From Acidobacteriota bacterium (lineage in GTDB: Bacteria; Acidobacteriota; Vicinamibacteria; Vicinamibacterales; JACQTH01), in assembly GCA_016178075.1 (NCBI GenBank), contig JACOUA010000055.1, positions 1 to 36,164 of the forward strand: a DNA stretch of 36,164 nucleotides. The letters run 5' to 3'. Under the pieces are notes generated by a model. It worked only from the letters and a program-made list of their open reading frames with translations. It was not told the DNA's origin and did no database searches. This document shows, piece by piece, positions 6,824 to 35,887 of this stretch. Each line of letters starts with the position of its first letter. Position 1 is the stretch's first letter. The position numbers and the translations under genes were made by a program.

Positions 6824-6835
6824 GAGAGGTCGTTG

Positions 6836-7159
6836 CTAGCTGCGGCGCGCTAGAAGACGCTCGCGCACGCCGGTTGGGTTGAAGCGTCGCTCGTTCTCCT
6901 GACGCACCTGCGCGGCCTGTTGCTGGCGTTGCGCCAGGTATGTGCGGACGTCCTGCTGGTGTCGAAGGTAGTACGCAATCACCGAGTAGACATCGGCCAA
7001 TGTGACCGAAGGGAACTGCTGGACGATTTCCTCCGCGGTGGCACCTGCGTCGAAGGCGGCAATGACCGTGTCGAGAGTCACGCGCGTATCGCCAACGCGA
7101 ATCACGCCATCAGCATCGGTCCGAATCGGAACCCGCTCCGTCGCGTCAGTTGAGCTCAC
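6836..7159 (-). CDS. DUF433 domain protein, probable antitoxin component
   Basis: IRTDADGVIRVGDTRVTLDTVIAAFDAGATAEEIVQQFPSVTLADVYSVIAYYLRHQ is a typical DUF433 motif; GTG start at 7159; 12 nt upstream of the DUF5615 gene. Confidence 0.87.
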   Translation of the reverse strand: MSSTDATERVPIRTDADGVIRVGDTRVTLDTVIAAFDAGATAEEIVQQFPSVTLADVYSVIAYYLRHQQDVRTYLAQRQQQAAQVRQENERRFNPTGVRERLLARRS

Positions 7160-8585: not shown

Positions 8586-10187
8586 GTGAGGCGCGTACCG
8601 ATCACCTTGCCGGCTTCGAGAATTGGGTCTAAGCTGCGGCCAGTGACCGGTGCCGTGATCTACGTCCGCGTGAGCACGAAGGAGCAGACGGAGAATCTGA
8701 GTCTGCCAACGCAGCTCCGCGCCTGCGAGGAGTACTGTAACCGCCAGGGTTACGAGGTTCTGGAGCGATTCAGGGAAGAAGGCGAGAGCGCCAAGACCAC
8801 GGACCGTACTGAGTTGCAGAAGTTGCTCAAGTACTGCCGCGCGCACAAGGGCAAAGTCAACTTCGTGGTCGTGTACAACCTCACGCGGTTTGCTCGCGAG
8901 AAGTACGATCACTTTGCGCTCAGAGCGCACCTGAAATCGCTCGGTATCTCGTTGCGCTCCGCGACGGAGCCAATCGACGATACGTCTACCGGAAAGCTGA
9001 TGGAAGGCGTCCTCGCGGCCTTCGCGCAGTTCGACAACGATGTGCGCTCGGATCGGACGCGCGCCGGCATGCGCGCGGCACTCGAACTCGGGCGCTGGAC
9101 CTTCCCCGCGCCCCTCGGGTATTTGAACGCGCCGAGATGGTCCGAGAAGAGCCTGGTGCCCGATCCGGAACGAGCGCCGCTTATCGCGCGTGCCTTCGAG
9201 GAGTTCGCGACGGGACGGTTTACGAAGCAGGAAGTGATCGCCCGTGTCACCGATGGGGGGCTGCGCACGCGGCGTGGACTGATGCTGTCGCCGCAAAGTT
9301 TCGGACAGATGATGCGGAACTCGATCTACATCGGTAGGATCGAGAGCCCCGAATACGGCGTGTCCACGCGTGGGGATTTCGACCCGCTCATCAGCGAGCA
9401 GACGTTTTATCGAGCGCAGGCGATCCTGGACGGCCGCGTCCAGGTCGCGGGACCACGTGAACGCAATCATCCTGATTTCGCGCTCAGAGGCTTCGTGCGT
9501 TGCGAAACCTGCGGTCGTCCGCTGACGGGGAGCTGGTCGAAGGGCCGGAACGGTTATTACGCGTACTACCACTGCCAACGTCAGTGTCGCGCCGTGAACG
9601 TGAGCAAGACCAAGTTGGAAGGACTCTTCGCCGGGGAACTCGGGCTACTGCAGCCAACTCCTGGCTACATGCGCCTGGTAAAGGATCGCGTGCTCTACGT
9701 CTGGCAGCAGCGTACGTCGGAAGTCAAGGACCGAGCGACCGAGGTCCAGCGGCGAGCCAAGGTGGTTCAGCAGAAGCTGGACCGGCTCGATGAAGCCTTT
9801 CTCTACGCGCAGACGATCGACCTGACGAGCTATGAAAGGCAGCGCGACAAACTGCGCGAGGAATTGACGCTCGCCCAGATCGACCACCACGCCGAATCGA
9901 TCGAAGAACTCGACGTACAGGGCATCCTGGCGTTCGCAGAACGCGTTTTGCCGCGCGCCTCGGACCTTTGGGTGCAAGCGTCGCTGAATCAGAAACAGCG
10001 GCTCCAGCAGCTGTTTTTCCCGGAAGGGATCGCGTTCGACGGAAATCGATTTAATCGAACCGCCGCAACCGCGCCATTTTTCAAGTACTTGGCGCCGTCC
10101 GAGAGTGCTGATGAAAAGGTGGTGAGCCGCGCAGGAATCGAACCGACACCGGGCGACGATTGGAGGGAAGGAATCGGGGTTCGTTGA
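8586..10187 (+). CDS. Large serine recombinase (resolvase N-terminal domain, recombinase domain, zinc ribbon)
   Basis: AVIYVRVSTKEQTENLSLPTQLRACEEYCNRQGYEV, FVVVYNLTRFAREKYDH, LRGFVRCETCGRPLTGSWSKGRNGYYAYYHCQRQC. Alternative GTG start at 8643 places the catalytic domain at the N-terminus. Confidence 0.93.
   Translation: MRRVPITLPASRIGSKLRPVTGAVIYVRVSTKEQTENLSLPTQLRACEEYCNRQGYEVLERFREEGESAKTTDRTELQKLLKYCRAHKGKVNFVVVYNLTRFAREKYDHFALRAHLKSLGISLRSATEPIDDTSTGKLMEGVLAAFAQFDNDVRSDRTRAGMRAALELGRWTFPAPLGYLNAPRWSEKSLVPDPERAPLIARAFEEFATGRFTKQEVIARVTDGGLRTRRGLMLSPQSFGQMMRNSIYIGRIESPEYGVSTRGDFDPLISEQTFYRAQAILDGRVQVAGPRERNHPDFALRGFVRCETCGRPLTGSWSKGRNGYYAYYHCQRQCRAVNVSKTKLEGLFAGELGLLQPTPGYMRLVKDRVLYVWQQRTSEVKDRATEVQRRAKVVQQKLDRLDEAFLYAQTIDLTSYERQRDKLREELTLAQIDHHAESIEELDVQGILAFAERVLPRASDLWVQASLNQKQRLQQLFFPEGIAFDGNRFNRTAATAPFFKYLAPSESADEKVVSRAGIEPTPGDDWREGIGVR
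10120..10144 (-). other. tRNA 3'-end fragment (T-arm, acceptor strand and CCA), tRNA-Lys-like; candidate attachment-site remnant
   Basis: Minus strand reads GGTTCGATTCCTGCGCGGCTCACCA; the sequence that should complete the 5' T-stem (GCAGG expected) is GTCGG, so tRNA resemblance stops at 10144. Confidence 0.65.
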
Positions 10188-20298: not shown

Positions 20299-21450
20299 TC
20301 ACACAGATGAGGCGGAGGCGGGCACCAGGTCCCGTCCCTTCCGTCGCTCGTTCGAGGCCCGCAGCAGGAACTTCACGTACGGCACGACCTGCTTGATGGC
20401 GGCGACGTTCATCTGGCAAGGGCTCAGACAGGTCGGGCATTGATGATCGCGGACCCAGCGACGGTGGTCCTGGCTCGCCGTTCGGAAGTAGATCTCGGCG
20501 GCGTCCTCGTCCCGGACGTTGCCCATCACGTCGCTGTTCTCGCAGAAGAACAGGCCCCCGTCCGGATTCAGCATCACCCCCTGCGACTGGAACGGACACG
20601 GCGCGAGGCGGTGATAGCCGTTCGCGATCATGTCGGCGTAGTGCATGTAGATGTAGTTCTGGCCGTCGAGCAGCGGGTCCATCCGGATGCGCTCGAGGAA
20701 GAACTGCCGCGCGTGCTCCTCATCGGGCCCGATCGGCTTGCACGTGTCCTTCAGATCGCCGTTGCCCAGCATCGGGTCGGTGAACCGGACCATGTTGAAG
20801 ACGATGTCGAGCCGCTCCTTCTTCGCCCACGTCAGCAGGTTCTCCGCGTCGTCGAGATTGCGCGTGAAGAGCGTCGAGGAGATGCCGAAGTTGAAGCGGA
20901 AACGCGCCTGGAGCGCCTTCATGGCGCTGATGGTCTTGTTCGCCTTTTCGAACCCGCGCCGCACGTGGCGGATGCTGTCGTGCAGCTCGCCGACGCCGTC
21001 GATCGAGAGCCTCACGCTGTAGATCACGTCGCGTGCGTGGCACAGCTCGGCCATCTGCGTGAGCATCGGGATTGCGCGGTGTGGCGTCAGGCCCGTCGTG
21101 GTGATGCCGATCTTCCTCAGTCGCGGGAACCGGTCGAGCATGATGCGGCAGATGTCGACCAGGTCGTTTCGGGTGGTCGGCTCGCCCCCCGAGATCGCGG
21201 CGTTCTCGACGTTCTTCCACAGGCTCGAGGAGAAGGCGCGATCGATGTCGTCGAGCGACATGTCCGCTTTCCGATCGCCCCGCTTCCAGTTGTTGCACAT
21301 CTCGCAGCGGGCGTCGCAGACGAACGTGCAGTGGAAGATGAGGACCGTCGGGTGGATCGCCTTGAACTGCGCGACGTACGCGTTGGCGAGATCGCGCGGG
21401 GCGGAGAGCGCGGCCTTGGCAAGATACTTCGCCGCGTACACCTGGGCCAT
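20299..21450 (-). CDS. Radical SAM protein with SPASM-like C-terminal cluster domain
   Basis: HCTFVCDARCEMCNNWK (CX3CX2C), AAISGGEPTTRNDLVDICRI; C-terminal CPFQSQGVMLNPDGGLFFCENSDVMGNV...CPTCLSPCQMN. Confidence 0.92.
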   Translation of the reverse strand: MAQVYAAKYLAKAALSAPRDLANAYVAQFKAIHPTVLIFHCTFVCDARCEMCNNWKRGDRKADMSLDDIDRAFSSSLWKNVENAAISGGEPTTRNDLVDICRIMLDRFPRLRKIGITTTGLTPHRAIPMLTQMAELCHARDVIYSVRLSIDGVGELHDSIRHVRRGFEKANKTISAMKALQARFRFNFGISSTLFTRNLDDAENLLTWAKKERLDIVFNMVRFTDPMLGNGDLKDTCKPIGPDEEHARQFFLERIRMDPLLDGQNYIYMHYADMIANGYHRLAPCPFQSQGVMLNPDGGLFFCENSDVMGNVRDEDAAEIYFRTASQDHRRWVRDHQCPTCLSPCQMNVAAIKQVVPYVKFLLRASNERRKGRDLVPASASSV

Positions 21451-21463
21451 ATGTCCTTGGATT

Positions 21464-23587
21464 CTAGGAGCTTTTGGCAGATGAGTAAAGCGAATGACCG
21501 CGCGACGCAGCGCGCGGGAACAGCACGGAGTAGATGGTCACGGATCGATTGCGAAACACCGGCCGGAACCATTGCGGCGCGGCGTCGAGCAGGCTCTCGA
21601 GCCGGGGATACGTGTCCCGCTCGGCGGGCGCGACCACCAGGTAGTCGATCGCGAGCGCCCGTGCCTCCATCCATATCGTGCGGCTGTCGTCGTCGCGATA
21701 GATGTCGCGAATCTCTGAGCTGGCGTCCTGATACTTGCGCAACGGAATCATCGAGATCGGCAGTCCCGCGACCATCCGTCGTTCGGCGAATGCCGGGATG
21801 TACGCCCATGTCTCAGGATCCCGAACGCTTGGCTCGATCTGGACCAGAGCATTGGTCGGCGTGGTTTGTCTGATCCACTTGAGCGCCTCGAGCTCATCCG
21901 GGGTCAGGATGACGGTCCAGTGGAAGCCAGGGGCCATCCGGCGGTTGGAGGTGTCCTGTGTGTTGTACAGGTCGATCGCCGTGGTGGGGAGGGCGGCAAG
22001 CGCGACGAGCGCACCGATGCACGTTGTCAGCAGGCGTGCCCGAGGCCCTTTCGCCCAGAGATCCTGGAGCGCAAAGCCCACGAGCGGGGCAAGGGCCATG
22101 AACAGAAGGTGCCCCGCTCGCCAGCCCACGTACACATGCTGGTGATCGCGGACGTCGACGAAGAAGTAGAAGATGGCGCTCACCAGCATCATCGCACCCG
22201 CGACAGCTAGGCTGCCTGCACGGCGGCGGGCGGCGAGATACGCCCCAGCCGCGGCGCCCAACAGCATCGGCCCGAAGCTCAAGAAGATGACCGTGGGGAC
22301 CGCGTGTGCGGCGGTCGGATTGAGTCGGCCGACAGCCACGAGAGATCCGCCCGATCGGTCGACGTAGTGCAGTGCGTTCGATACCCAAACGGCGATGGCG
22401 ATCGGAATCGCTCCCATCAGGCCGGCGACAGCAAGGCGGTTCCACCTTCTTCCGGGTAGTAAGCTGACGAGCTGGCACAGCGCGATCACGGCGGCGATCA
22501 TGACGGCCAGGAACGAGCTCAAGAGCAAGCCGATCGCGAGCAGCCCCCCCGCGACCAGATTGACCGAGGGTCGAGCTGGGTCTCTGGCGTCGAGCAGCAC
22601 CAGCAGCGCTGACAGACTGAGTCCCCAGGCGGTCGCATGGTGCGGCTGATAGAGCAGCAGGCGTTGCAGGCCGTCAATCGGCATGCCGCCGAAGATCCAG
22701 CGGCTGACGGCGTCGATATTGAGGTTCGTGACGAGATGCAGAGGCGCGTTCAACCACCACAGCGCCACGAGCTGTTGTAGGCCTTCGAAGCTCGAAAAGA
22801 GCACCGCGCTCGTGCAGGCGATCGCCGCTGCGGCCGGCTTTTCGACGAAGTGCCGGACAAAAAAGTAGAAGAACGCCATGAACGCCAGGTCGAGCATCAG
22901 CGCGTTCGTCAGCAGGATCTGTTCTGTCGACGCGCGGTGTTGCGCCTGTCGATATTCGATCGCGGAGAGCAGATCGGGGAGCCAGTAGTAATGAAGCCGA
23001 TCGCGGCGCATGAACGGGTTGCGCGGCGGGACGTCCCCTTTGCTGACCTCCGCGACGACCGCCATCGCCCAGACAAAATCGGCGGTGAAGTACGCGCGAT
23101 AGGCCTTGCCTTCCGGTCGCATCTCACCGACGCGCGCGTATGGACGCCCGACGACGAGGGGAACGACGGCGAGGACGAGGAGCACGGGCAGGAGATCGCG
23201 TCGATCGAACGACGGAAGGTCCAGCGCGCCGGCGAGGCGTGAGGCGGGGATCGCGAGCAGTACGGCGCCGAGCGGCGCCAACGCGAGAACCGCCGCGCTC
23301 CGGACGCCGATCGTCCAGAGCGCGAGCAGCACGAGGCTCGTCGTCGCGAATCCCCACACGGGACCCACGAGCAGAGACGCGCCGGAGGTGCCGCGTTGCG
23401 CCCCGTACAAACGGCGCGCGATAATGACGCCGGGCAGCATCGCCCACGCCATCACGGCCACGAGCGCGAGCCCAACCTTGAGAGGCGCGATGGCGACGAG
23501 ACAGATCGCGATGGAGCCGCCGAGCGTCAGCGAGACGATGGTCGCGTATCGAGTAACGAAGCTTCGCCTCAAACTGACGCGTGACAC
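21464..23587 (-). CDS. Large polytopic membrane protein, probable glycosyltransferase-like
   Basis: 707 aa with many TM segments and a long soluble C-terminal tail; HYYWLPDLLSAIEY and late-loop features typical of C-type membrane glycosyltransferases. GTG start. Confidence 0.65.
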   Translation of the reverse strand: MSRVSLRRSFVTRYATIVSLTLGGSIAICLVAIAPLKVGLALVAVMAWAMLPGVIIARRLYGAQRGTSGASLLVGPVWGFATTSLVLLALWTIGVRSAAVLALAPLGAVLLAIPASRLAGALDLPSFDRRDLLPVLLVLAVVPLVVGRPYARVGEMRPEGKAYRAYFTADFVWAMAVVAEVSKGDVPPRNPFMRRDRLHYYWLPDLLSAIEYRQAQHRASTEQILLTNALMLDLAFMAFFYFFVRHFVEKPAAAAIACTSAVLFSSFEGLQQLVALWWLNAPLHLVTNLNIDAVSRWIFGGMPIDGLQRLLLYQPHHATAWGLSLSALLVLLDARDPARPSVNLVAGGLLAIGLLLSSFLAVMIAAVIALCQLVSLLPGRRWNRLAVAGLMGAIPIAIAVWVSNALHYVDRSGGSLVAVGRLNPTAAHAVPTVIFLSFGPMLLGAAAGAYLAARRRAGSLAVAGAMMLVSAIFYFFVDVRDHQHVYVGWRAGHLLFMALAPLVGFALQDLWAKGPRARLLTTCIGALVALAALPTTAIDLYNTQDTSNRRMAPGFHWTVILTPDELEALKWIRQTTPTNALVQIEPSVRDPETWAYIPAFAERRMVAGLPISMIPLRKYQDASSEIRDIYRDDDSRTIWMEARALAIDYLVVAPAERDTYPRLESLLDAAPQWFRPVFRNRSVTIYSVLFPRAASRGHSLYSSAKSS

Positions 23588-23662: not shown

Positions 23663-23745
23663 CCAACGCGGCTGCCGCGTTGGGGACCCCGGGCTTGCAC
23701 GGCGAAGTTGACTCGTTCGTACGCGTTTTAGCCGTGCAAGCACGG
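23663..23745. repeat. Cluster of two palindromes in divergent intergenic region
   Basis: CCAACGCGGC-T-GCCGCGTTGG (23663-23683) perfect; CCGGGCTTGCACGGC (23689-23703) / GCCGTGCAAGCACGG (23731-23745) pairs 14 of 15. Confidence 0.6.
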
Positions 23746-23781
23746 CTGGCGAAAGGTCGTTTCGACGGAACCGCGATTATC

Positions 23782-24816
23782 GTGACGCGACTTCTGAAAG
23801 TCAAACGGACCCACCTGTTGTTCGCGGCCCTCAACCTGATCCTCCCCATCGTGATCGTTGAGGCCTGGATAGTGGTGATGCTGGCGAGCCCACGGCTCGT
23901 CGCCGCGTCGCCGCCACCGATTCGCCAATTTGTGCAGAAAGTGTATCGGCACTTCAACCGCTCACTCATCCAGTTCGAGCCACGATGCGCGCGCTACGAT
24001 CCCGAGCTTGCTTACACCCTCCGCCCCGGCTCGTGCGTCTTTGGCAATGTCGAGTTCTCCAACGAATACCGAATCAACCGTGCCGGCGTGCGAGACGACG
24101 AGGCCTCGCTCGAGGCCCCAGACGTCATCGTGCTGGGTGATTCCCAGGCGATGGGGTGGGGCGTCGACCGGCCGGCGACCTTCGCGAAGAGGCTGGAACG
24201 GAAGAGCGGACTGAAGGTCTTGAACGCGGCTGTGTCATCGTACGGCACGGTCCGGGAGATGGAGCTGCTCGAGCGGCTGGACACGTCGCACCTGCGGTTC
24301 CTCGTGGTGCAGTACTCCGACAACGATCTGGCGGAGAACCGGACGTTTGCGCAGAACGACGGCCGGCTGCCGATGATGAGTCAGGGGGACTACGAGCGTG
24401 CCGTTCAGTACTATGCGTCGCAGCGCGGCTACTATCCGGGGAAATACATCTACCGGCTTCTCCTCAAGGGACTGCGCCTCGAGGAGCCGGAGCCCGATCA
24501 GTTCAGGATGGAGCCGATCGCGCCGCTCGGAGAAGCCGAGCTGTTCATCACCGCCATCACGCGCCGGCAGGCATCGCTCGATAACGTCCAGCTCATCGTC
24601 CTCGAGGTGAACGAGAAGCTGGACTCGCCGCGCCAGTTCATCGCCGCAGTGGCTGAAAGAAAGAGCCGAACGTCGAATCCGTTCGTGCGAGCACTGATTA
24701 CGATCGACACCGCGCGGTTTCTCACCCCACGCGACTTCTACGTCCTCGACGATCATTTGAATGTGCACGGGCACGAGGCCGTCGCCGACGCGCTGCTGGC
24801 TGTGATCAAGAGGTAG
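23782..24816 (+). CDS. SGNH/GDSL-hydrolase-like membrane-anchored protein
   Basis: Likely GTG start (VTRLLKVKRTHLLFAALNLILPIVIVEAWIVVML); ELAYTLRPGSCVFGNVEFSNEYRINRAGVRDDEASLEAPDVIVLGDSQAMGWGV; C-terminal DDHLNVHGHEAVADALL (catalytic DxxH-like). The ORF-track start at 23620 runs through palindromes. Confidence 0.75.
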   Translation: MTRLLKVKRTHLLFAALNLILPIVIVEAWIVVMLASPRLVAASPPPIRQFVQKVYRHFNRSLIQFEPRCARYDPELAYTLRPGSCVFGNVEFSNEYRINRAGVRDDEASLEAPDVIVLGDSQAMGWGVDRPATFAKRLERKSGLKVLNAAVSSYGTVREMELLERLDTSHLRFLVVQYSDNDLAENRTFAQNDGRLPMMSQGDYERAVQYYASQRGYYPGKYIYRLLLKGLRLEEPEPDQFRMEPIAPLGEAELFITAITRRQASLDNVQLIVLEVNEKLDSPRQFIAAVAERKSRTSNPFVRALITIDTARFLTPRDFYVLDDHLNVHGHEAVADALLAVIKR

Positions 24817-25738
24817 TCTTCGTCCGAAGATACAACCAGGCGCCCGGAAGATTCGCCACGATCCCCGTCACGATAATGAGCGTTGAGAGCGCAAATGACA
24901 CCGCGTCCGGCACGCCCTGCGGACGGAGCAGCCAGACGATCACGCCCTGTGGCAGCCCAAAACCGCTGATGGAAATCGGGATGAGCAGCATCAGGAGCCC
25001 GATCGGCATGAAGACCAGGTAATAGGTGAAGGGGACGTCGAGGCCCAGGCCCCGGCCGAGCGCGTAGGCTTGAAGAACCCGCAGGACCTGAACCGCTACC
25101 GACAGCAGCAGCACCGCGCTCAAAATGCCTCGGCGTCCGCGATATCGCCCGAGCGCGTCGAACAACCGCACGAGCCGGCCGCCATGGGGGGTCCCATGCC
25201 AGCTCGATGGCAGGGCGAGCGTCAGGATGCGGTCGGCCCAGAAGACTCCAGCCGCCCCGAGCCCGACCAGCATGGCCAGCACCACCGTCGTCTGCTGGAG
25301 TTCAGAATCGATCTGGCGCGTCCAGACGACGATCCCGATCGTGCCCAGCAGCACAATCGACAGCATGCCGAGCACGCGGTCGACCGCGACGGAGGCGATC
25401 GACTCGCTGCGCGGCGTAACGTCCCGCGTGAGGCTCAGGGCGCGCAGCGCGTCGGCGCCGACGCCGGCGGGCAGGAAGCTTCCCACGAACGAGCTGACCA
25501 GGTAGACGCGAGAGGCCGAAGCGGTCGAGACGACGGCGCCGCTGGCCCGCAGGAGCAGGATCCACCGCCAGATCATGATGAAGCGATCGACAGCGAGAAG
25601 CGCCAGGACAACCAGAGCTGCGCGTTGATCGAGACGCAGCATGGCCGCCCACGTGTCCCGCAGGTCGATGCGCGCGAGGAGATAGATGAGGATGGCGGCC
25701 GTCAGAGCCGCACGGAGGATCGAGGAGAAGTGGCGCAT
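24806..25738 (-). CDS. Lysylphosphatidylglycerol synthase TM-region (flippase-like, UPF0104) family protein, copy 1
   Basis: SSFVGSFLPAGVGADALRALSLTR...VAVDRVLGMLSIVLLG...LLIPISISGFGLPQGVIVWLL; start MRHFSSILRAALTAAILIYLLARIDL. Confidence 0.87.
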   Translation of the reverse strand: MRHFSSILRAALTAAILIYLLARIDLRDTWAAMLRLDQRAALVVLALLAVDRFIMIWRWILLLRASGAVVSTASASRVYLVSSFVGSFLPAGVGADALRALSLTRDVTPRSESIASVAVDRVLGMLSIVLLGTIGIVVWTRQIDSELQQTTVVLAMLVGLGAAGVFWADRILTLALPSSWHGTPHGGRLVRLFDALGRYRGRRGILSAVLLLSVAVQVLRVLQAYALGRGLGLDVPFTYYLVFMPIGLLMLLIPISISGFGLPQGVIVWLLRPQGVPDAVSFALSTLIIVTGIVANLPGAWLYLRTKTTS

Positions 25739-25792
25739 TTGAGGATGTGGTGATTTATCTCCAATCGCCAAATCCCAAATGCTCAGAGTTAT

Positions 25793-26701
25793 TTAGAACC
25801 TTCCCCTGCCGGTCCAGCGGCCGATCGTGTTGCCGGCGGCGGTGCTGGCAGTCTTGTCATCCCAGCCGGCGCCCGGGTTGGGTCCGCAGTGCCCGGTGAT
25901 GATGTCGATGATGTAGACGTCCGTGCTGCCCTCGTCCGGACCCGGTCCGAAGTGGTAGTCGATGACATCCAGTGACGGGTCACCCACGTTGCCGCGCTTC
26001 CAGTTGTAGCCCCACCGCGTGTCGATCTCCCGCAGGCGATCCACGACACGATCCATGAACTCCCAGGTGCCGCCGGTCTCCTGACAGGAGTTCCCGAGCG
26101 CTCTGGGGTACTGATCTGCGACTTCCCGGATGATGTGCTGCATTTGCGGCAGCGGCAGCCGCTGTCCGGGAGGAGGATCCGGCGTCCGTGATTCCGGCGG
26201 CTTCGGCGGAACCGGCGGCGGCGGCGGAGGCGGCGGCGGTGGAGGAGCCGACGTCGAGAAATCGGTGGTTCGTGAGAAGGTGCCGATGCCCCCATCGAAC
26301 TCCGGGCGCGCGCGCCAGCGATAAAGCGTGCCGTACTTCAGGTCAGGAACCTCCACGCTCGTCCGCCCGCCGCTCCCTTGGGGGACGCGGTACGTGTTCA
26401 GGATGTCGTTGCCTTCATAGAACTCGAAGAGGTACGTGAAGCTCGCGCTCACGTACTGGCCGGTTGAGTTCTGGATCTCGAGCGTGGTCGACAGCGAATC
26501 GATCGTTGCGCCGTGCGCCGGCGACATGTTCACCGGCGTCGTGGCCTTCAACGTGCTGCCGTCGGCATTTGCCGGCGCGTTCGTGCCGGCCCCAACGGTG
26601 GCCTCCGGTCCGACGAGTTCACGAGAGGTGTTGCTGCACCCCACTGCCAGGGCGAGCGCCACGCACGCCCCAATCAGGGGAAGCCTGATCCGTTCAAGCA
26701 T
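25793..26701 (-). CDS. Lipoprotein with FN3-like domain, Pro-rich linker and uncharacterised C-terminal domain (paralog 1)
   Basis: MLERIRLPLIGACVALALAVGCSN (lipobox LAVGC); PPPPPPPPPPPVPPKPPESRTPDPPPGQRLPLP linker; C-terminal 116 aa (25796-26143) shared with 27795-29369. Confidence 0.85.
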   Translation of the reverse strand: MLERIRLPLIGACVALALAVGCSNTSRELVGPEATVGAGTNAPANADGSTLKATTPVNMSPAHGATIDSLSTTLEIQNSTGQYVSASFTYLFEFYEGNDILNTYRVPQGSGGRTSVEVPDLKYGTLYRWRARPEFDGGIGTFSRTTDFSTSAPPPPPPPPPPPVPPKPPESRTPDPPPGQRLPLPQMQHIIREVADQYPRALGNSCQETGGTWEFMDRVVDRLREIDTRWGYNWKRGNVGDPSLDVIDYHFGPGPDEGSTDVYIIDIITGHCGPNPGAGWDDKTASTAAGNTIGRWTGRGRF

Positions 26702-26796
26702 TCGAAAGTTCTCCAGTGTTCGGGGTTCTCGAGCGGAGACCGGTCCGCGTCGAGCGCGGCTATCATACCATCGCCGTGCCGTTTTTCGGCCTCATG

Positions 26797-26830
26797 CATA
26801 CGCGGGTAGTGACCCACTACCCATACGCGG
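26797..26830. repeat. 9-bp direct repeats CATACGCGG flanking the palindrome GGGTAGTG-ACC-CACTACCC
   Basis: CATACGCGG at 26797-26805 and 26822-26830; inverted arms 26804-26811 and 26815-26822; lies between divergent lipoprotein and barrel genes. Confidence 0.6.
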
Positions 26831-26944
26831 AGAATCACGCCGGGTGCGCCCTCGAGTCCGGGACCGCGCGTCTGGGCCATTGAAGGCTTTGTGATAGCAT
26901 GCTGCCGCTTTCCGCGGTTTCCCTCTCGCGACCAGGACCCATAC

Positions 26945-27751
26945 ATGAGATCGACGATTCTCAAGGCTCTTGCGGCCGCCACCGTCCTGCTGTTCGTCGC
27001 GCCCCCCGTCCACGCACAGGTGTTTCGCGACTGGACCGATCGCGGCTTCGCCCAGATCAACCTGTCCAACCAGCTGACCTCGGCCGACCTGAACGACAGT
27101 TGGAGCCTCACGGCATACGACGAGCAGGGGAACGTCGAGACTCATCAGCGGATCAAGGGTGGCCGCGGCTTCGATGTCGGCGGGGGCGTGCGGGTCTGGC
27201 GTCATCTGGGCGTCGGACTCGGCGTGTCTCGATTCTCCGACTCGTCCAGCGCCGCGATCGTCGCACGGATTCCGCATCCGCTCATTTTCGATCGTCCCCG
27301 GACCGCGACCGGATCAGCCGATACGAAGCACTCGGAAACCGGGGTGCACCTTCAGGCGACCTGGCTGCTCCCGTTGAGCAAGCTGCCGTTCACCGCCCGG
27401 ACCACGGACAGGATCCTCATCGGCGCCTTCGTCGGCCCGTCGTTCTTCAAGGTGACGCAGACCTTCGTGAACGCGATCGGCTTCTCGGAAGTCGGGGCGC
27501 CGTTTACGTCCGCGAACCTCGGGGGCGTGACGACTCGCAGCCAGGGCAAATGGGCAACCGGCGTCAACGTGGGCCTCGACATCTCGTATCGAGTCACGGA
27601 GTCGGTCGGGGCGGGGCTTCTGCTGCGGTACGCCGGCGCGTCGGCCGACCTGAACGCCGGATCGGGCCGAACCCAATCGATTGACGCCGGAGGGTTTCAG
27701 ATCGGCGTCGGCGCCAGGCTCAGGATCAAAAACAACTGGCGCATTTGGTGA
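26945..27751 (+). CDS. Secreted outer-membrane beta-barrel-like protein
   Basis: MRSTILKALAAATVLLFVAPPVHAQ signal peptide; alternating hydrophobic/polar strands (GGGVRVWRHLGVGLGVSRF, GVNVGLDISYRVTESVGAGLLLRYAGAS, GGFQIGVGARLRIKNNWRIW). Confidence 0.75.
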   Translation: MRSTILKALAAATVLLFVAPPVHAQVFRDWTDRGFAQINLSNQLTSADLNDSWSLTAYDEQGNVETHQRIKGGRGFDVGGGVRVWRHLGVGLGVSRFSDSSSAAIVARIPHPLIFDRPRTATGSADTKHSETGVHLQATWLLPLSKLPFTARTTDRILIGAFVGPSFFKVTQTFVNAIGFSEVGAPFTSANLGGVTTRSQGKWATGVNVGLDISYRVTESVGAGLLLRYAGASADLNAGSGRTQSIDAGGFQIGVGARLRIKNNWRIW

Positions 27752-27766
27752 TTCAATCAATCACCA
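27746..27766. repeat. Hairpin TGGTGATT-CAATC-AATCACCA overlapping the barrel gene stop codon
   Basis: Exact 8-bp arms 27746-27753 and 27759-27766; convergent intergenic region. Confidence 0.5.
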
Positions 27767-27794
27767 GATCCCCAACTACCAAATCACAAGATTC

Positions 27795-29369
27795 TCAGAA
27801 CCTTCCCCGTCCCGTCCACCGCCCAATCGTCCCGCCGGCCGCCGTGGACGCGGTGACATCGGTCCACCCGGGCGACGGATTCGCGCTGCAGTGGCCGCCG
27901 ATCACGTCGATGATGTAGACGTCGGTGCTGCCTTCGTCCGGACCCCGGCCGAAGTGATAGTCGACGACGTCCTTCGAAGGATCCCCCACGTTCCCGCGCT
28001 TCCAGTTGTAACCCCAGCGCGAGTCATTCTGCCGCAAACGGTCGACGAGCCGGTCCATGAACTCCCAGCTTCCGCCCGAGTCCTGGCAGGAGTTCTTCAA
28101 CGCGCTCGGGTAGGTTCGCGCGACTTCCTGGACGATGCTGAAGGCATCCGGCAGCGGCAGACGCTGTCCGGGCGGCGGGTCCGGGGTGCGGCCGCCGGGC
28201 GGCGGTGCCGGAATCGGCACGGGCGACGGCGAGGGTGACGGTGACGGGGCTGGTGGCGGCGGCAGTGGCGCAGGCGGATCCGGCAGCCGAAGCGCCCGCG
28301 GATCCGACCACGCCCCTTGTTCGGTGCCATCACTCGCGCGCACGTGCCAGAACAGGTACTGCCCGTAGCTCCAGTCCTGAGGAGACGCGAAGCTCGTCTG
28401 GGTCGATTGTTCGGCGACTTGCCAGACCGCCAGCTTGTTTCCGAACGACTCGACGTCCGAGACCTCGACGGTGTACTTGATGGCGCCGGCTGGACCGCTG
28501 CGCGAAGCGTTGGACCAGGTGAAGGTCGGACGCAACGAGCTCACCCGCTCGTTGTTGGCCGGCGAGACCAGCGTCGGCTTGCCGATCACGACCGGTGTGA
28601 AGACGAGAAACGCTCTCGGGTCGGACCACGGTCCCTCTTCCGATCCGTCGCTGGTGCTCGCGCGCACGCGCCAGAAGAGGTATTGCCCGTGCGTCCAGTT
28701 CTGCGGGGATTGATACGTCGTCTGCGTCGGTTGCTCGAGGACTTGCCAGACCGCCAGCTTGCTGGCAAACGACTCGGCGTTCGCGATCTCGACCGTGTAC
28801 TTAACGGCTCCCACCGGACCGCTGCGCGGGACGTTTTCCCACCGGAAGGTCGGCCGAACCGACGGCACCTGCTCGTTGTTGGCTGGCGACAGCAGGTTCG
28901 GTTTGTTGATCGAGACCGGTGAGACGACCCTGAAGTCTACGGGCGAGGAATACGGCCCCGTGTTGGCGCCATCGGCAGCGCGCGCCCGCCAGTAATAGCT
29001 GCGCCCGCTGGCGAGCGGATCGGGCAGGCGCAGGCTGGTCCGGCCGCCCTCGCCGGGGGCCACCCTGTCCCGAACGAAGACCATGCCCTTGAAGTCGGTG
29101 TCCGTCGCGATCTCAAAGCTGTAGCTGAGTGGCCGCTGGCCGGTGCTGCTCGCGTTCTCGATGAGCAGGGTCAGCGGCTGGTCGCTGTCCCTCAGTTGCG
29201 TGCCGGCGCCCGGCTCGAGCGGCTTCGGCGCGGAGATCGAAACGCCCGGAATGGGGCCCGCAACCGACGGGCTGAGCGGATTGCTGCTCTTGGCGGTTTC
29301 GCAGGCCCCGGCAATGGCAGAAGCAGCCACCAGGCCGGCAACTGCCCGGAAGTGCACACGATGACGCAT
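27795..29369 (-). CDS. Lipoprotein with tandem FN3-like repeats, Pro/Ser-rich linker and uncharacterised C-terminal domain (paralog 2)
   Basis: MRHRVHFRAVAGLVAASAIAGACETAKSS (lipobox IAGAC); linker PAPLPPPPAPSPSPSPSPVPIPAPPPGGRTPDPPPGQRLPLP; C-terminal 116 aa (27798-28145) shared with 25793-26701. The ORF-track extension to 29939 overlaps the flippase gene. Confidence 0.85.
   Translation of the reverse strand: MRHRVHFRAVAGLVAASAIAGACETAKSSNPLSPSVAGPIPGVSISAPKPLEPGAGTQLRDSDQPLTLLIENASSTGQRPLSYSFEIATDTDFKGMVFVRDRVAPGEGGRTSLRLPDPLASGRSYYWRARAADGANTGPYSSPVDFRVVSPVSINKPNLLSPANNEQVPSVRPTFRWENVPRSGPVGAVKYTVEIANAESFASKLAVWQVLEQPTQTTYQSPQNWTHGQYLFWRVRASTSDGSEEGPWSDPRAFLVFTPVVIGKPTLVSPANNERVSSLRPTFTWSNASRSGPAGAIKYTVEVSDVESFGNKLAVWQVAEQSTQTSFASPQDWSYGQYLFWHVRASDGTEQGAWSDPRALRLPDPPAPLPPPPAPSPSPSPSPVPIPAPPPGGRTPDPPPGQRLPLPDAFSIVQEVARTYPSALKNSCQDSGGSWEFMDRLVDRLRQNDSRWGYNWKRGNVGDPSKDVVDYHFGRGPDEGSTDVYIIDVIGGHCSANPSPGWTDVTASTAAGGTIGRWTGRGRF
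28296..28920 (-). repeat. Two tandem ~100-aa FN3-like repeats within the lipoprotein gene
   Basis: KPNLLSPANNEQVPSVRPTFRWENVPRSGPVGAVKYTVEIANAESFASKLAVWQVLEQPTQTTYQSPQNWTHGQYLFWRVRAS / KPTLVSPANNERVSSLRPTFTWSNASRSGPAGAIKYTVEVSDVESFGNKLAVWQVAEQSTQTSFASPQDWSYGQYLFWHVRAS. Confidence 0.85.
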
Positions 29370-29425
29370 GGATACCCTCGCCCTGGAATGTCGGATAGAG
29401 AGGCGGACGGCTGTAGAAAGCCCGC

Positions 29426-30415
29426 CTATCGCACTGTATCGGACTGGAGCGGGGCGGGGATTAACCCACGACGCACGAGCAGAATGCCGCCGCTGATGCT
29501 GAAAAGCAGGATGAGCGCGGCGCCGAAGAGCGAGAGCGCCAACGCGGAATCGGTGCTGAACCCGAAGCTGGCGAAGAAAAAGGCAAAAACGGCCTCTCGA
29601 ACGCCCAGGCCGTTGATCGAGATGGGGAGCATCTGGACGATGAGGCTGATGGGGACCAGGACGGCGGCGTACTGAGGGGGCAGGCCAATCGACAAGCCGC
29701 GCGCGATGCACAGATAGAAGAGGACGATCCCGACCTGCACCAGCACGGCCCCGACGAATGCCTGGCCCAGATACCGGGGGCGCTGGCGGAAGCCTGCGAG
29801 CGTGTTGCCGAGTCGGCGCAGGCGCTCGTCCACCCATTCCGGCTCGATCACGCGAAGCGGCGAGAGCAGGCGAGGCAGCGCGTGTGGGAAAAAGAACGCG
29901 AGGATCGAGATCGCAATCGCCGCGGCGAACAAACCCCACACGTATCCGACCTCAGGAACCCCGACTCTGACGCGCGAGGCTGCCAGCAGCCCACCGCCCG
30001 CCACGGCAAAGAGCGCCAGCAGGCCCAGCACACGATCGACGAGGATGACGGTCGTCGCCACCGTCTTGGACGTTGTCAGCGGAGCCGTATCGGCGATCCG
30101 AATCACATCGCCGCCGATGTTGCTCGGGAGAAAATTGTTGAAGAACGTCGCGACGAGAAACGATTCCGCGAGCGTCGACAACGAGACCTTCACGGACTGG
30201 GCGGCGAGGAGCAGACGCCAGCGCCACGCGCCGACCCACACCATCGCGCTGTAGAGGCCGAGAGCGCCGATCATCCAGGACGGATTCATCCCGCGCAGGC
30301 GTGTGACGAGCGCCCGCAGATCGGTGCGGGCCAGCAGCAGCGTCAACAAGCCGACGCTGACCACAATCTTGCCGATGATGAGGAGGCGACTCGTTCGCCG
30401 GGAGAGCTTGGCCAA
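29426..30415 (-). CDS. Lysylphosphatidylglycerol synthase TM-region (flippase-like, UPF0104) family protein, copy 2
   Basis: ATFFNNFLPSNIGGDVIRIADTA...VILVDRVLGLLALFAV...LPISINGLGVREAVFAFFF. Confidence 0.9.
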   Translation of the reverse strand: MAKLSRRTSRLLIIGKIVVSVGLLTLLLARTDLRALVTRLRGMNPSWMIGALGLYSAMVWVGAWRWRLLLAAQSVKVSLSTLAESFLVATFFNNFLPSNIGGDVIRIADTAPLTTSKTVATTVILVDRVLGLLALFAVAGGGLLAASRVRVGVPEVGYVWGLFAAAIAISILAFFFPHALPRLLSPLRVIEPEWVDERLRRLGNTLAGFRQRPRYLGQAFVGAVLVQVGIVLFYLCIARGLSIGLPPQYAAVLVPISLIVQMLPISINGLGVREAVFAFFFASFGFSTDSALALSLFGAALILLFSISGGILLVRRGLIPAPLQSDTVR

Positions 30416-30447: not shown

Positions 30448-31737
30448 TTGAATACCGACACGTCGAGCCGAGGTCACGCCGGGTTGCGCATCCTGATGCT
30501 GGCGCCGCAGCCGTTCTTCGAGCCGCGAGGCACGCCGTTCAGCGAATACCACCGGATCAAGGCGCTCGTCGAGCTGGGACACACGATCGATCTCGTGACC
30601 TACCCCTTCGGCCGCGACGTGTCGCTGCCCAACCTGCGAATCATCCGCGCGGCGCGGCCCCCGCTGGTGCGGACCGTCGCGATCGGTCCCTCTTTCAGGA
30701 AGCTCCTGCTCGATATGTGCCTCGCGGTCGCGGCCTGGCGCACGGCGCGGCAGGCGACTTACGACGTGGTCCATTCTCACGAGGAGGCCGGCCTGCTGGG
30801 GGTCTGGCTCGCGTCTCGGCTCGGCGTTCCCCACGTGTACGACATGCATTCGAGCCTCCCGCAGCAGCTCACCAATTTCGGCTACTCCCGGTCGCGAGTG
30901 CTGCAGCGACACTTCGAGGCCGCCGAACGCCGGATGGTCGAGAGGTCACAGGTCATCATCACGGTGTGTCAGCAGCTGCTGGACGCGGTCCGAGTCATGG
31001 GCGTGGGCCAGCGCGCGGTGCTCATCGAAAACGTCATGGGCGGCGATTTCGACCAGGCCGCGGCGACGGCCAGCGACGCTCGGTCGATTCGCGCGCGATG
31101 GCAGGTCGGCGCCGACGAGCCCCTCGTCCTCTACACCGGCACGCTGGAGACCTATCAAGGCGTCGATCTGTTGCTGTCGGCGGCGGCGATCCTCCGCCGG
31201 AGCCATCCCCGGGCGAGAGTCATGATCGTCGGAGGTACGGCGGATCAGGTGAGCGGCGCGCGCGCGAAGGCGGCTCGTCGGAGCGTTGACGCGATCTTCA
31301 CGGGCCAGCGCCCCGCGCAGGAGATCGCGGACTTCGTCGCTGCATCCGACATCCTGGTGTCGCCGCGAATCGCGGGGACGAACACGCCGCTCAAGATCTA
31401 CTCGTATCTCCGGTCGAAGCGGCCGATCGTGGCGACGGATCTGCCCACCCACACGCAGGTCCTGACGCCGGACATCGCCGTGCTCGTGCCGCCTGACGCC
31501 GCGCCGTTCGCGGCCGCGCTGGGGAGATTGATCGACCGGCCCGACGAGCGGGCGGCGATTGCCGAGCGTGCCGCCGCGTTCGCGGCGACGCGTTACAGCC
31601 GCGACGTCTTCATCGACCGCACGCGTGAGGCCTACGAAAAACTCCGGCTCGTGCCGGGCGGCGCGCCGGGTCTCGTGGCGGATCGGGCGTCGCGTCCGCT
31701 CCCCGACAGCCATCCCGTCGGTTCTTCTCGGCGGTGA
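30448..31737 (+). CDS. Glycosyltransferase family 4 protein
   Basis: RILMLAPQPFFEPRGTPFSEYHRIKALVELGHTIDLVTYPFG; VVHSHEEAGLLGVWLASRLGVPHVYDMHSSLPQQL; PLVLYTGTLETYQGVDLLLSAAAIL. Confidence 0.9.
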   Translation: MNTDTSSRGHAGLRILMLAPQPFFEPRGTPFSEYHRIKALVELGHTIDLVTYPFGRDVSLPNLRIIRAARPPLVRTVAIGPSFRKLLLDMCLAVAAWRTARQATYDVVHSHEEAGLLGVWLASRLGVPHVYDMHSSLPQQLTNFGYSRSRVLQRHFEAAERRMVERSQVIITVCQQLLDAVRVMGVGQRAVLIENVMGGDFDQAAATASDARSIRARWQVGADEPLVLYTGTLETYQGVDLLLSAAAILRRSHPRARVMIVGGTADQVSGARAKAARRSVDAIFTGQRPAQEIADFVAASDILVSPRIAGTNTPLKIYSYLRSKRPIVATDLPTHTQVLTPDIAVLVPPDAAPFAAALGRLIDRPDERAAIAERAAAFAATRYSRDVFIDRTREAYEKLRLVPGGAPGLVADRASRPLPDSHPVGSSRR

Positions 31738-32720
31738 TCGCACTTGTCACAGGCGTAACCGGGTTCACCGGTGGTCACCTCGCTCACCACCTGCTGACGC
31801 GCGGCTATCGAATTCGGGGGCTCGTCCGGCAGCGCAGCCTGGACAAGGCCAGGTCACTCGAGGCGGCTGGTCTGGAGACCGTCGTGGGTGACCTGGGTGA
31901 TCCACGTTCATTGGACGAGGCCTGTCGCGGCGTCGAGGTCGTCTTTCACGTGGCGGCGACCTATAGAGAGGCGGGTCAGCCCGGCGCGGCCTATCACGTC
32001 GTCAACGTCGAGGGGACGCGGCATCTGCTGGCGTCGGCGAAACGGGCGGGCGTACGCCGGTTCGTACACTGCAGCACCGGCGGCGTTCATGGTCATGTCG
32101 AACGGCCGCCTGCGAGCGAAGACGCCCCGCTTCGCCCGGGCGACGTCTATCAGGAGACGAAGCTGGAAGCCGAGACGCTGGCGCGCGAGTTCGGGCGTCG
32201 TGAAGGTCTTGCGGTCACGATCGTGCGGCCGATCGGAATCTACGGGCCTGCGGATACGCGGTTTCTCAAGATGTTTCGCGGGATCGCGCGCGGCCGATTC
32301 CCGATGCTCGGCTCGGGCGAGGTCTTCTACCACCTCACCTACATCGACGATCTGGTCGAAGGGTTTCGGCTGTGCGCCGAGCATGACGCGGCCGCCGATC
32401 GAACGTATCTTCTGGCCGGGCCGGAGTACACGACGCTCAACGAGCTTACGGAACTCATCGCGCGCGAGCTGGGTGTCGCGCCGCCACGATGGCGGCTGCC
32501 CGTATGGCCGTTCTGGATCGCGGGGGCGATCTGCGAGGCGGTCTGCGTGCCGCTTCGCGTCGAGCCACCGCTCTATCGCCGACGCGTGGACTTCTACGTG
32601 AAGAGCCGCGCCTTCGACATCTCGCGGGCCCGGCGGGAGCTGGGGTACGATCCGAAGGTCGATTTGAAGACGGGCATTCGACGAACCGTGGAATGGTATC
32701 GTGCGAACAGGTTGCTCTAG
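31734..32720 (+). CDS. NAD-dependent epimerase/dehydratase (extended SDR, HpnA-like)
   Basis: MIALVTGVTGFTGGHLAHHLLTRGYRIRGLVR Rossmann motif; YQETKLEAE (YxxxK); GTG start overlaps the previous TGA stop (GTGA). Confidence 0.9.
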   Translation: MIALVTGVTGFTGGHLAHHLLTRGYRIRGLVRQRSLDKARSLEAAGLETVVGDLGDPRSLDEACRGVEVVFHVAATYREAGQPGAAYHVVNVEGTRHLLASAKRAGVRRFVHCSTGGVHGHVERPPASEDAPLRPGDVYQETKLEAETLAREFGRREGLAVTIVRPIGIYGPADTRFLKMFRGIARGRFPMLGSGEVFYHLTYIDDLVEGFRLCAEHDAAADRTYLLAGPEYTTLNELTELIARELGVAPPRWRLPVWPFWIAGAICEAVCVPLRVEPPLYRRRVDFYVKSRAFDISRARRELGYDPKVDLKTGIRRTVEWYRANRLL

Positions 32721-32756: not shown

Positions 32757-33962
32757 GTGTCGAGCGTGAAGCGCCTGAACATCGTCCAGATCTGCGATCA
32801 CCTCGGGTGGCCCGGCTCACGCATGCACGGCGTGAAGCGGCTGTTCGCCTGGATGATTCCGAGGTTCGATGCCCGCCGCTTCAAGCTCTCGCTCGTCAGC
32901 CTGCGCAAGAAAGATCTCTCCGACGACACGTTGGAGGCGTTGGGGATCGACGTCACTTACCTGCACAAGGCCAAGTTCGATCCGGCCACGCTGCCGGCGC
33001 TCCTGAAGGTGCTCCGGCGCCAGCAGGCCGATCTCGTCCACATGCACGGCTACGGGGCGACCACGTTCGGCCGGCTGGCCGCGGCGCGCCTGCGCATCCC
33101 GGCGCTCCTGCACGAGCACGCCAATCACACCGACACGCCGTGGTTTCAGAAGATCGCCGACAAGGCGCTGGCCCCGTACACCGATCTGGCCATCGCGGTG
33201 TCGCAGTCGACGGCAGAGTTCGTCGCGCGGGCCCGACAGATACCGGCCGAAAAGACCCGGGTCGTGTATTTGGGCGTGCCGCTCGAGGAATTCGCGCGAA
33301 CGCGATCGCCGGCGGAGATCGAGGCGGCGCGCGAGGCGCTCGGCCTTCCGGGTCGGGCACCGATCGTGGGCACGATCACGCGGCTCATGCCGTCGAAGGG
33401 CAACCAGTATTTCGTCGGGGCGGTCGCCACCGTGGCCGCGCGGGTGCCGGATGCGAGGTTCGTGGTGGTCGGGGAGGGCGACCTGCGGCCCGAGCTCGAG
33501 GAGCAGGCTCGCGCGCTTGGGGTGGCGGACAAAGTCACCTTCACCGGGTTCGTGCGCGACGTGCCAGCCGCGCTCTCTGCGCTCGACGTCGCGGTGTTCC
33601 CGTCGCTCTGGGAGGGGACGCCGCTGACCGCATTCGAGGCGCTCGCCATGGGGAAGCCAATCGTGTCGACCGACGCCGACGGGCTGAAGGACATTCTGAC
33701 CAACGGGCACGACGCGATCGTCGTGCCGCGGCGGAACAGCGTGGCGCTCGGGGAAGCCATCGCGCATCTCCTGCAGGATGCCTTCCGTCGGGCCACGCTG
33801 GGCGCGACCGCTCGAATCACGGGCGCCCGGTACGACATCGACCTGTTTGTCAGGAAGCTCGAGCGGCTGTACGCGCTTCTGCACGAGACCTCACGGCCGA
33901 CGCGCCGTGCGGGCGCGCTGCAGGCCGACTTGAGCTTCCTGATCGATGGCGTCAGGACGTGA
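32757..33962 (+). CDS. Glycosyltransferase family 4 protein
   Basis: VKRLNIVQICDHLGWPGSRMHGVKRLFAWMIPRF; DLVHMHGYGATTFGRLAAARLRIPALLHEHAN; VAVFPSLWEGTPLTAFEALAMGKPIVSTDADGLKDIL. Confidence 0.93.
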   Translation: MSSVKRLNIVQICDHLGWPGSRMHGVKRLFAWMIPRFDARRFKLSLVSLRKKDLSDDTLEALGIDVTYLHKAKFDPATLPALLKVLRRQQADLVHMHGYGATTFGRLAAARLRIPALLHEHANHTDTPWFQKIADKALAPYTDLAIAVSQSTAEFVARARQIPAEKTRVVYLGVPLEEFARTRSPAEIEAAREALGLPGRAPIVGTITRLMPSKGNQYFVGAVATVAARVPDARFVVVGEGDLRPELEEQARALGVADKVTFTGFVRDVPAALSALDVAVFPSLWEGTPLTAFEALAMGKPIVSTDADGLKDILTNGHDAIVVPRRNSVALGEAIAHLLQDAFRRATLGATARITGARYDIDLFVRKLERLYALLHETSRPTRRAGALQADLSFLIDGVRT

Positions 33963-35887
33963 CGCCCGCGCCCCCACAGCTCGACGACCGCGGGGCGGCC
34001 CGCCTCGTCGGTTGGGTCGCGGTCTCGGTGCTCGGACTCTTCCTGGGCGGGTTTGCCTTCTCCGTCAACTTCCCGGTCGCTGCTCACGGATTTCAGAGCG
34101 ACGAAGCGACCTACTACAGCCTGGCGCACAGCCTGGCCAGCGATGGCGACTTCGTCTTCGAGCGAAAGGATCTCACTCGCGTCTGGAAAGAGTTTCCGAC
34201 GGGTCCCGAGGGCATCTTCCTCAAGCGCGGGCGAGATCTCGAGGTTCGCTGGGGCGGCCGCTTTCCCTTCGTCCACCTCGCGCGGCGGCAGGATCGTGGG
34301 GCGGATCGCCTGTACTACGGGAAGTCCTACATTTACCCGCTCGTCGCCGCGCCGTTCGTGCGGCTCTTCGGCACGAACGGCTTTCTGATACTGCACGCGA
34401 TCCTCATGGTTCTGAGCTTCGCCTGCACCTATGCGTTTCTGGTCGCGCGGGGCAGACCCCCGGTGGCGCTCTTGTATGCCGGCGTGTTCTTCGTCGGCTC
34501 GGTCGTCCCGGTCTACATGGTCTGGCTGACGCCGGAGCTCTTCAACCTCTCGCTCGCCATCTTCGGTCTGTTGCTCTGGACCTATAAAGAGGTGGCTGCC
34601 GGTCCAGGTGGCGGGGTCCTGCGCTCGGCGTCATCGGACTACTGGGCAGCGGGCATGTTCGCGATTGCCACGTTCTCGAAGCCCACCAACATCGTGCTCA
34701 TCCTGCCGGTCATCGGCCTCCACCTGTGGCGCCGCCAGTGGCGCGGGGCCGTCATCGCGGCCGTCGTCTACGGATCGCTCGTCGTTGCGCTACTGGCCGG
34801 GAACCTCGCCATCAGCGGCGAGGTCAACTTTCAGGGCGGCGATCGAAAGACGTTCTATGCCGCCACGGGCTTTCCGTTCCAGAGCGCCGAGGCGACGTTC
34901 GATACGGTCGGACAGGAACGGACGACCGATTCCATTCCGTTCGACGTGTTGCTCACGCGCGACGCGCTTGTCCGGGTCTTCCCGCACAACCTCGCGTACT
35001 TCGTGTTTGGCCGCCACACGGGCCTCGTGCCGTACTTCTTCCCAGGGGTCTTGAGCTTTTTGCTCTTTCTCGGCGCAGGATCCCGGCGCGAGCGCTGGCA
35101 GTGGCTTCTCGCCTCCACCGTCGTTGTCGCGAGCGTCGGGCTGCTGCTTTACATGCCGCACACCTATTCCGGCGGCGGCGGGCCGATCGGGAACCGCTAT
35201 TTTCTCGGCTTCTATCCGATCCTGTTGTTCCTGACGCCGCCGCTGCGATCGGTCGTGGCGCCCGTTGCGGCGCTGGCCGTTGGCGGTCTCTTCACGGCGC
35301 AGCTCGTGGCGAACCCGTTCGAGGTGTCGTTCCGACCGGCGGAACATCCGAAGAGCGGACCGTATCGCGTGTTGCCGGTCGAGCTGACGCTTCTGAACGA
35401 TCTGCCGGTCAACGTGACGCCGAGGCGGGTGCGGCAGCCGCTCGCGGGGGACCCGCCGGTCCTGGCATACTTTCTCGACAACAACGCCTACGATCGGGAA
35501 GGCGATCGCTTCTGGGTCCGGGGCGAATCCCGCGCCGAGCTGATCCTGCGCGCCCCGACCGTCCCACGCCCGGACGGCACGTACACGAGCCTGCATCTCG
35601 CCGGGGTGAACGTCGAGCTGCAGACGGGCGAGGTGGCGACCCAGGTGACGATGAGGTCAGCCGCCGAGTATCAGGAGGTGGCGCTGGCCGGGCGGGCGAC
35701 CGGGGTCGTGAGGCTCCGAATGGGAGCAGGGGTGCCGTATCGGCCATATCCCGGACAGCCGACGACATACGCCTATCTCCTGTCAATCGGCTGCGACGCC
35801 GGGTTCGTGCCGCTCTTCTCGTCGGCGTCACGCGACAGCCGGTACCTCGGCGTGCTGGTCCGCATCGTGCCGGTGTATGTCGAGTAG
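33959..35887 (+). CDS. Polytopic membrane protein, PMT/GT39-like glycosyltransferase candidate
   Basis: GTG 33959 overlaps the previous TGA (GTGA); VTPAPPQLDDRGAARLVGWVAVSVLGLFLGGFAFS...HGFQSDEATYYSLAHSLASDGDF, then multiple TMs. The ORF-track extension to 32489 overlaps coding sequence in another frame. Confidence 0.75.
   Translation: MTPAPPQLDDRGAARLVGWVAVSVLGLFLGGFAFSVNFPVAAHGFQSDEATYYSLAHSLASDGDFVFERKDLTRVWKEFPTGPEGIFLKRGRDLEVRWGGRFPFVHLARRQDRGADRLYYGKSYIYPLVAAPFVRLFGTNGFLILHAILMVLSFACTYAFLVARGRPPVALLYAGVFFVGSVVPVYMVWLTPELFNLSLAIFGLLLWTYKEVAAGPGGGVLRSASSDYWAAGMFAIATFSKPTNIVLILPVIGLHLWRRQWRGAVIAAVVYGSLVVALLAGNLAISGEVNFQGGDRKTFYAATGFPFQSAEATFDTVGQERTTDSIPFDVLLTRDALVRVFPHNLAYFVFGRHTGLVPYFFPGVLSFLLFLGAGSRRERWQWLLASTVVVASVGLLLYMPHTYSGGGGPIGNRYFLGFYPILLFLTPPLRSVVAPVAALAVGGLFTAQLVANPFEVSFRPAEHPKSGPYRVLPVELTLLNDLPVNVTPRRVRQPLAGDPPVLAYFLDNNAYDREGDRFWVRGESRAELILRAPTVPRPDGTYTSLHLAGVNVELQTGEVATQVTMRSAAEYQEVALAGRATGVVRLRMGAGVPYRPYPGQPTTYAYLLSIGCDAGFVPLFSSASRDSRYLGVLVRIVPVYVE

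Follow-up and report, generated by a model that had tools for sequence, protein, structure and literature searches.

The window, which is the whole stretch of 36,164 nucleotides, carries five core genes in the order flippase-like (-), lipoprotein B (-), outer-membrane β-barrel (+), lipoprotein A (-) and flippase-like (-), together with a cassette of glycosyltransferase genes (Table 1). The initial annotation had given the order, strands and coordinates of these five genes correctly, and its naming of the outer two and of the central gene agrees with matches to PF03706 and OMP_b-brl, respectively. The start of lipoprotein A is taken as the ATG at 29369; the mechanical open reading frame, which runs up to 29939, overshoots into the neighbouring flippase gene.

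Table 1. Features of the locus, in positions of the window
Feature	Position	Strand	Evidence and remarks
PF03706 flippase-like membrane protein 1, 329 aa	29426..30415	-	PF03706 E 2.8e-42; found at the same locus in relatives
Lipoprotein A, 524 aa	27795..29369	-	lipobox AGAC, three Fn3/Ig-like stalk domains, Pro/Ser-rich linker, T1 head
T1 head domain of lipoprotein A	27798..28154	-	groups with the B head as its sister (support 97/92)
Outer-membrane β-barrel, 268 aa, signal peptide	26945..27751	+	OMP_b-brl E 9.7e-8
Lipoprotein B, 302 aa	25793..26701	-	lipobox LAVGC, one Fn3-like domain, Pro-rich linker, T1 head
T1 head domain of lipoprotein B	25796..26152	-	AlphaFold model, pLDDT 85.6, pTM 0.83
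PF03706 flippase-like membrane protein 2, 321 aa	24806..25771	-	PF03706 E 1.4e-32
GT4 glycosyltransferase, cassette gene 1	30448..31737	+	kept in relatives
NAD-dependent epimerase/dehydratase-like cassette gene	31734..32720	+	named from sequence; homologues at the equivalent position in relatives
Second GT4 glycosyltransferase of the cassette	32757..33962	+	BLAST cluster shared with 30448-31737; order kept
Polytopic GT-C-like membrane glycosyltransferase	33959..35887	+	named from sequence; position kept in relatives
Polytopic GT-C-like membrane protein	21464..23587	-	weak DUF6541 match; position kept in relatives
Radical SAM/SPASM protein, far side of the locus	20299..21450	-	homologue in L052 matches Radical_SAM and SPASM; position kept

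Both flippase-like proteins are clear members of the PF03706/TIGR00374 family (flippase-like, LPG synthase TM), with 113.8 bits for 24806-25771 and 145.7 bits for 29426-30415 against a cut-off of 33.4. They differ from MprF, the full-length bifunctional lysyl-PG synthase and flippase, in that the synthase part is absent, and they score only 10-15 against the MprF equivalog model NF033480, the cut-off of which is 600. The barrel scores 32.8 bits against a cut-off of 28.7, and its signal peptide was read from the N-terminal hydrophobic segment. Its family (alignment A4) is present in 125 of the 162 genomes of the order, many of its paralogues lie elsewhere with neither a flippase nor a stalk lipoprotein nearby, and the family is thus wider than the locus, so that contact between barrel and lipoproteins is presumptive. 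The arrangement resembles RcsF-OmpA and the Slam-dependent lipoproteins, where, according to two published accounts (PMC7553776, PMC5449769), an outer-membrane barrel and a lipoprotein act in concert; the likeness consists in the presence of a barrel and lipoproteins, whose interaction at the window is putative. For the radical SAM gene, an identity as viperin was rejected, as only a weak viperin-like PADLOC match was obtained, which was read as generic radical SAM similarity.

The two lipoproteins have a lipobox with a cysteine, from which lipidation is predicted, and stalks of Fn3/Ig-like type. Lipoprotein A gives stalk matches to Ig_Rha78A_N and SusE (PF14292), the latter with 35.8 bits against a cut-off of 25.2 and for lipoprotein A only, which probably reflects a shared Ig fold. 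In being lipid-anchored with stacked Ig-like domains the protein recalls the SusE/SusF-type surface glycan-binding lipoproteins, but these belong to another phylum (Bacteroidota), the window lipoproteins differ from them in the C-terminal head, and no linked SusC or SusD genes were recognised among the window neighbours. The lipoproteins of relatives share, across families, the slot-A stalk signature 'KS.NPLSP..AGPIPGV.I.AP' and those of slot B the signature 'ADGSTLK...P..MSP'. The N-terminal regions of A and B, which had initially been described as diverged, do differ, but as two stalk families that are each conserved separately and not as products of mere divergence. Within the stalk of lipoprotein A, adjacent 300-nt copies at 28333-28956 are 74% identical and represent an internal duplication of an Fn3/Ig-like domain. 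In genome G368 (L049 67-2301), the frame of lipoprotein A apparently shifts inside the Pro-rich linker, leaving the head in another frame, by sequencing error or a real frameshift.

Both lipoproteins end in the same domain, referred to here as the T1 head. The two copies in the window are identical at 90 of 119 positions (76%, gapless, E 2e-69), in line with the 88 of 116 originally counted by hand. Synonymous sites are strongly diverged (dS ~1, dN ~0.2) and pN/pS is 0.33, which argues for selective constraint and not for recent copying; a very recent duplication is ruled out by the dS value, although the two heads are sisters in the tree. The motifs NSCQ, GHC, WEFMDR..VDRLR and RWGYNWKRG are found in both, as the initial annotation had seen for the first three, but H88 of GHC is lost in some homologues and is not conserved across the head family. 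The most conserved core consists of R46, W47, G48, K52, D62 and D83. C23 and C89 are invariant or nearly so and a further pair of cysteines has been acquired jointly in several members, a pattern that would fit disulfides in an extracellular domain.

The domain had not been recognised at first, and it matches no characterised family: there is no match above cut-off in Pfam or NCBIfam and nothing significant in profile searches against PHROGs and PDB sequences. An AlphaFold model built on 16 homologues shows helices, four strands and then a short helix. Foldseek against the PDB returned a best E of 1.4, with probabilities of at most 0.06 among the matches listed, and the sole significant structural neighbour is the uncharacterised phage protein A0A6J5QSJ9 (E 9e-7, TM 0.76). 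A C39 or papain-like cysteine protease, to which C23, H88 and a PDB hit with an E of 0.32 had pointed, was rejected because this value is not significant, H88 is missing in some members, and one phage form (L069) has neither the Cys nor the His.

In many genomes the same lipoprotein slots hold other head domains. On the conserved slot-A stalk the head is T1 in the window and elsewhere T2 (A5; 'WNP.GPD.NWCIK.GG.GRP.SDDVIVRC..RDAWDLI'), T3 (A6; 'GPFG.L.K.SG..C.GYSCDI.C...QWDVL') or T4 (A7; 'GWNLKRGGPE.SID.I'), while the heads found in slot B are T1, a divergent form of T1, T2 and one of ~230 aa that looks unrelated (A8). The latter appeared lectin-like by eye, a candidate assignment that was dropped since no profile backs it. 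The head types may be variants of one fold: T1 and T4 align with an HHalign probability of 87%, the T1 and T2 models have the same order of structural elements, and the uncharacterised phage protein A0A6J5MLQ7 is matched by both models (T1, probability 0.87 and E 0.03; T2, probability 1.00 and TM 0.82). The profiles of T1 and T3 compare with a probability of only 1.6% though their motifs align in register, and kinship of T3 is a suggestion at the level of motifs. An extra slot-A-type lipoprotein in two loci (L054 5464-6561 and L013 752-1849) ends in a further head, 'FFSLVAAKGGPTVSDAGMRAMRGDLLARGADFQNGWRGDMRPRIFLPV', and with FFSLVAAKGGPTVSDAGMRAMRGDLLARGADFQNGWRGDMRPRIFLPV the head repertoire is therefore larger than T1 to T4. 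Two slot-B lipoproteins (L005 10009-10788 and L051 10237-10971) carry a strongly diverged T1-like head (RWG..K...DVVA) with no HC motif, which MAFFT misaligned in alignment A3.

T1 homologues occur in Acidobacteriota, Elusimicrobia, 9 of 189 Myxococcota genomes and only 1 of 288 Patescibacteria genomes, with up to six copies per genome; across phyla they are 42-55% identical to the window domain. No significant match was obtained by tblastn against plasmids and isolated phages. The domain forms the C-terminus of 76 out of 77 distinct proteins and is mostly preceded by Ig/Fn3-type or low-complexity stalks (matches to Ig_Rha78A_N, SusE, fn3, TIG and He_PIG), with a signal-like region ahead of it in 67 of the 71 proteins that have enough upstream sequence. 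In the head tree, the window pair is separate from the slot-B heads of families f8 and f3. As the two window heads are sisters to each other and not to other slot-B heads, lipoprotein B gained its head in this lineage, and slot B as a whole has acquired T1 heads more than once. Conclusions are drawn from the tree for this pair and for the distinct slot-B clades of f8 and f3 only; several slot-A heads (L050_11, L052_5, L053_10 and L055_11) carry a B label that was assigned by pattern. Four Myxococcota proteins (L079-L082) contain two tandem T1 domains. Tandem proteins of 740-770 aa with DUF5719/TIG-type stalks, each ending in T1, form a second locus (L061 8132-13091 and L062 7727-15246) devoid of flippase and barrel genes.

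The conservation of the locus was surveyed with the barrel family as an independent marker. Of 69 distinct barrel loci, 41 have a flippase gene at most six genes away; these represent 41 distinct genomes and 11 families of the order, and as some contigs end near the barrel the true share may be higher. In genome G126 the locus is contained in one complete contig. These loci usually also contain two lipoproteins and the GT4/epimerase/GT-C cassette, the order in relatives being GT-C, GT4, epimerase, GT4, flippase, lipoprotein A, barrel, lipoprotein B, methyltransferase, flippase and radical SAM; the methyltransferase is absent from the window. Eight genomes that were checked have only 3-7 PF03706 genes each, two of them at this locus in six genomes and one in the other two. 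By our own arithmetic, a flippase would fall by chance within ~14 kb of roughly 1-2% of sites. T1 copies elsewhere, be it at other Acidobacteriota loci or in Myxococcota, Elusimicrobia and Patescibacteria, have neither a flippase nor a barrel gene beside them, and the same applies to paralogues in the same genomes (L057-L059, L061, L062 and L064-L066). Since domain and barrel paralogues occur elsewhere in other company, the linkage defines the locus and not the domain. The recurrent neighbourhood that was expected of the homologues thus exists at the locus in 11 families and is missing around the other copies, and the proposal that the five genes form one module is supported by synteny as a property of one order's locus. 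A GDSL/SGNH-like gene (23734-24816, +) is convergent with flippase 2, and a GDSL esterase gene lies inside the locus of L052 (7284-8318).

Heads of the same type are shared with phages. T1-like heads were found in three IMG/VR contigs adjoining structural genes: in L067 the protein bearing the head has a coil-like N-terminus and is encoded immediately after a structural protein of 1344 aa, in L068 the head stands behind a signal peptide, and in L069 it is followed by a coil, with genes for a C92-like amidase and a GH108/peptidoglycan-binding lysin nearby. T2 heads occur in L148, between a signal peptide and a coil and near a YiiX-like gene similar to the C92-like gene of L069, and in L149, followed by a Pro-rich linker and a coil. 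Coils and signal peptides of phage proteins were read by eye, and no T3 or T4 heads were found in phage contigs. The Caudovirales proteins A0A6J5QSJ9 and A0A6J5MLQ7 have the predicted fold of T1 and T2, respectively, but are encoded by phages. The phage copies close to lysis genes and those with Sec-type signals suit a periplasmic role better than adsorption.

Taken together, these observations suggest, with a probability of about 0.42, an envelope module in which outer-membrane stalks present ligand-binding tips, probably for the envelope glycan of the adjacent cluster. The initial proposal of surface-glycan or lipid export and anchoring is plausible given the neighbouring glycosyltransferases. 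The glycosyltransferases, the epimerase, the GT-C proteins and the two PF03706 transporters would assemble a lipid-linked sugar or glycolipid and move it to the periplasm, and the barrel and two lipoproteins would constitute the outer-membrane end. Each lipoprotein consists of an Fn3 stalk, predicted to be anchored by a lipid, a proline-rich linker and, at its tip, a presumably disulfide-stabilised α-α-β4 head. The heads may be exposed at the surface and would bind a ligand, most likely an envelope or extracellular glycan and probably that of the locus. Their observed exchange as whole units, with the stalks conserved, would follow from a ligand that differs from lineage to lineage, and the phages that share them, in exported form or attached to coiled coils, would use them to bind this ligand as well. 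Against this stand the barrel paralogues that lie away from such neighbours, the better fit of those phage copies to a periplasmic role, the conservation of R46, K52/R53, D62 and D83, which is sufficient for an active site, and the fact that genes may stay syntenic throughout an order although they act in no common pathway. What the locus indicates is a system for recognition or tethering at the cell surface that has not been described before; the literature searched yielded no account of a locus of this kind. It is doubtful, but conceivable, that it is a recognition system with head cassettes in a fixed slot, in which phages carry the same heads, as competitors that are exported or as parts of the virion, and a single envelope ligand is the object of an arms race between head type and phage. 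As heads are common to host lipoproteins and phage proteins, the ligand question is directly testable. T1 is predicted to be a compact extracellular domain that occurs in several phyla and phages and has no Pfam, NCBIfam or PDB relative, so that one structure would annotate many unknown proteins.

In an unlikely alternative, the lipoproteins tether the outer membrane to the cell wall, their heads bind peptidoglycan or another polymer in the periplasm, and phage copies break or block the tether during lysis. With a lipid anchor, a flexible Pro-rich linker and a C-terminal head that is conserved, the lipoproteins are built like tethers, the L068 and L148 copies begin with a signal peptide, and phage head genes lie near the lysis-type genes of L069 and the YiiX-like gene of L148. 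However, replacement of heads between lineages would be unexpected if the bound polymer were invariant, neither sequence nor fold searches matched a peptidoglycan-binding domain, and the three Fn3-like domains of the A stalk make a long spacer.

It is rather improbable that the head is an enzyme acting on envelope glycan or envelope proteins, with head types of different specificity. The identity retained across phyla, the charged residues R46, K52, D62 and D83 and the up to six copies per genome speak for this; yet only a short core is common to T1-T4 and the phage forms, Cys and His are lost from the L069 form, and the fold has no relative among solved enzymes. Still harder to credit is a protein-glycosylation locus, in which lipoproteins and barrel are mainly substrates or passengers and the glycosyltransferases and GT-C proteins modify the Pro/Ser-rich stalks. 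Such linkers do adjoin GT-C-like membrane glycosyltransferases in a fixed gene order, but conservation is not highest in the linker and same-head lipoproteins exist elsewhere without such genes. That unrelated envelope genes were kept together by slow rearrangement alone, as the confinement of all syntenic cases to one order might suggest, is very improbable, because order and slots are kept over 11 families while heads are replaced and flippases are rare in these genomes.

Elsewhere in the window, two small ORFs (6467-7105, -) give the impression, from their sequence only, of a DUF5615/DUF433-type toxin-antitoxin pair, and a large gene at 8643-10187 reads as a serine recombinase, a possible remnant of a mobile element.
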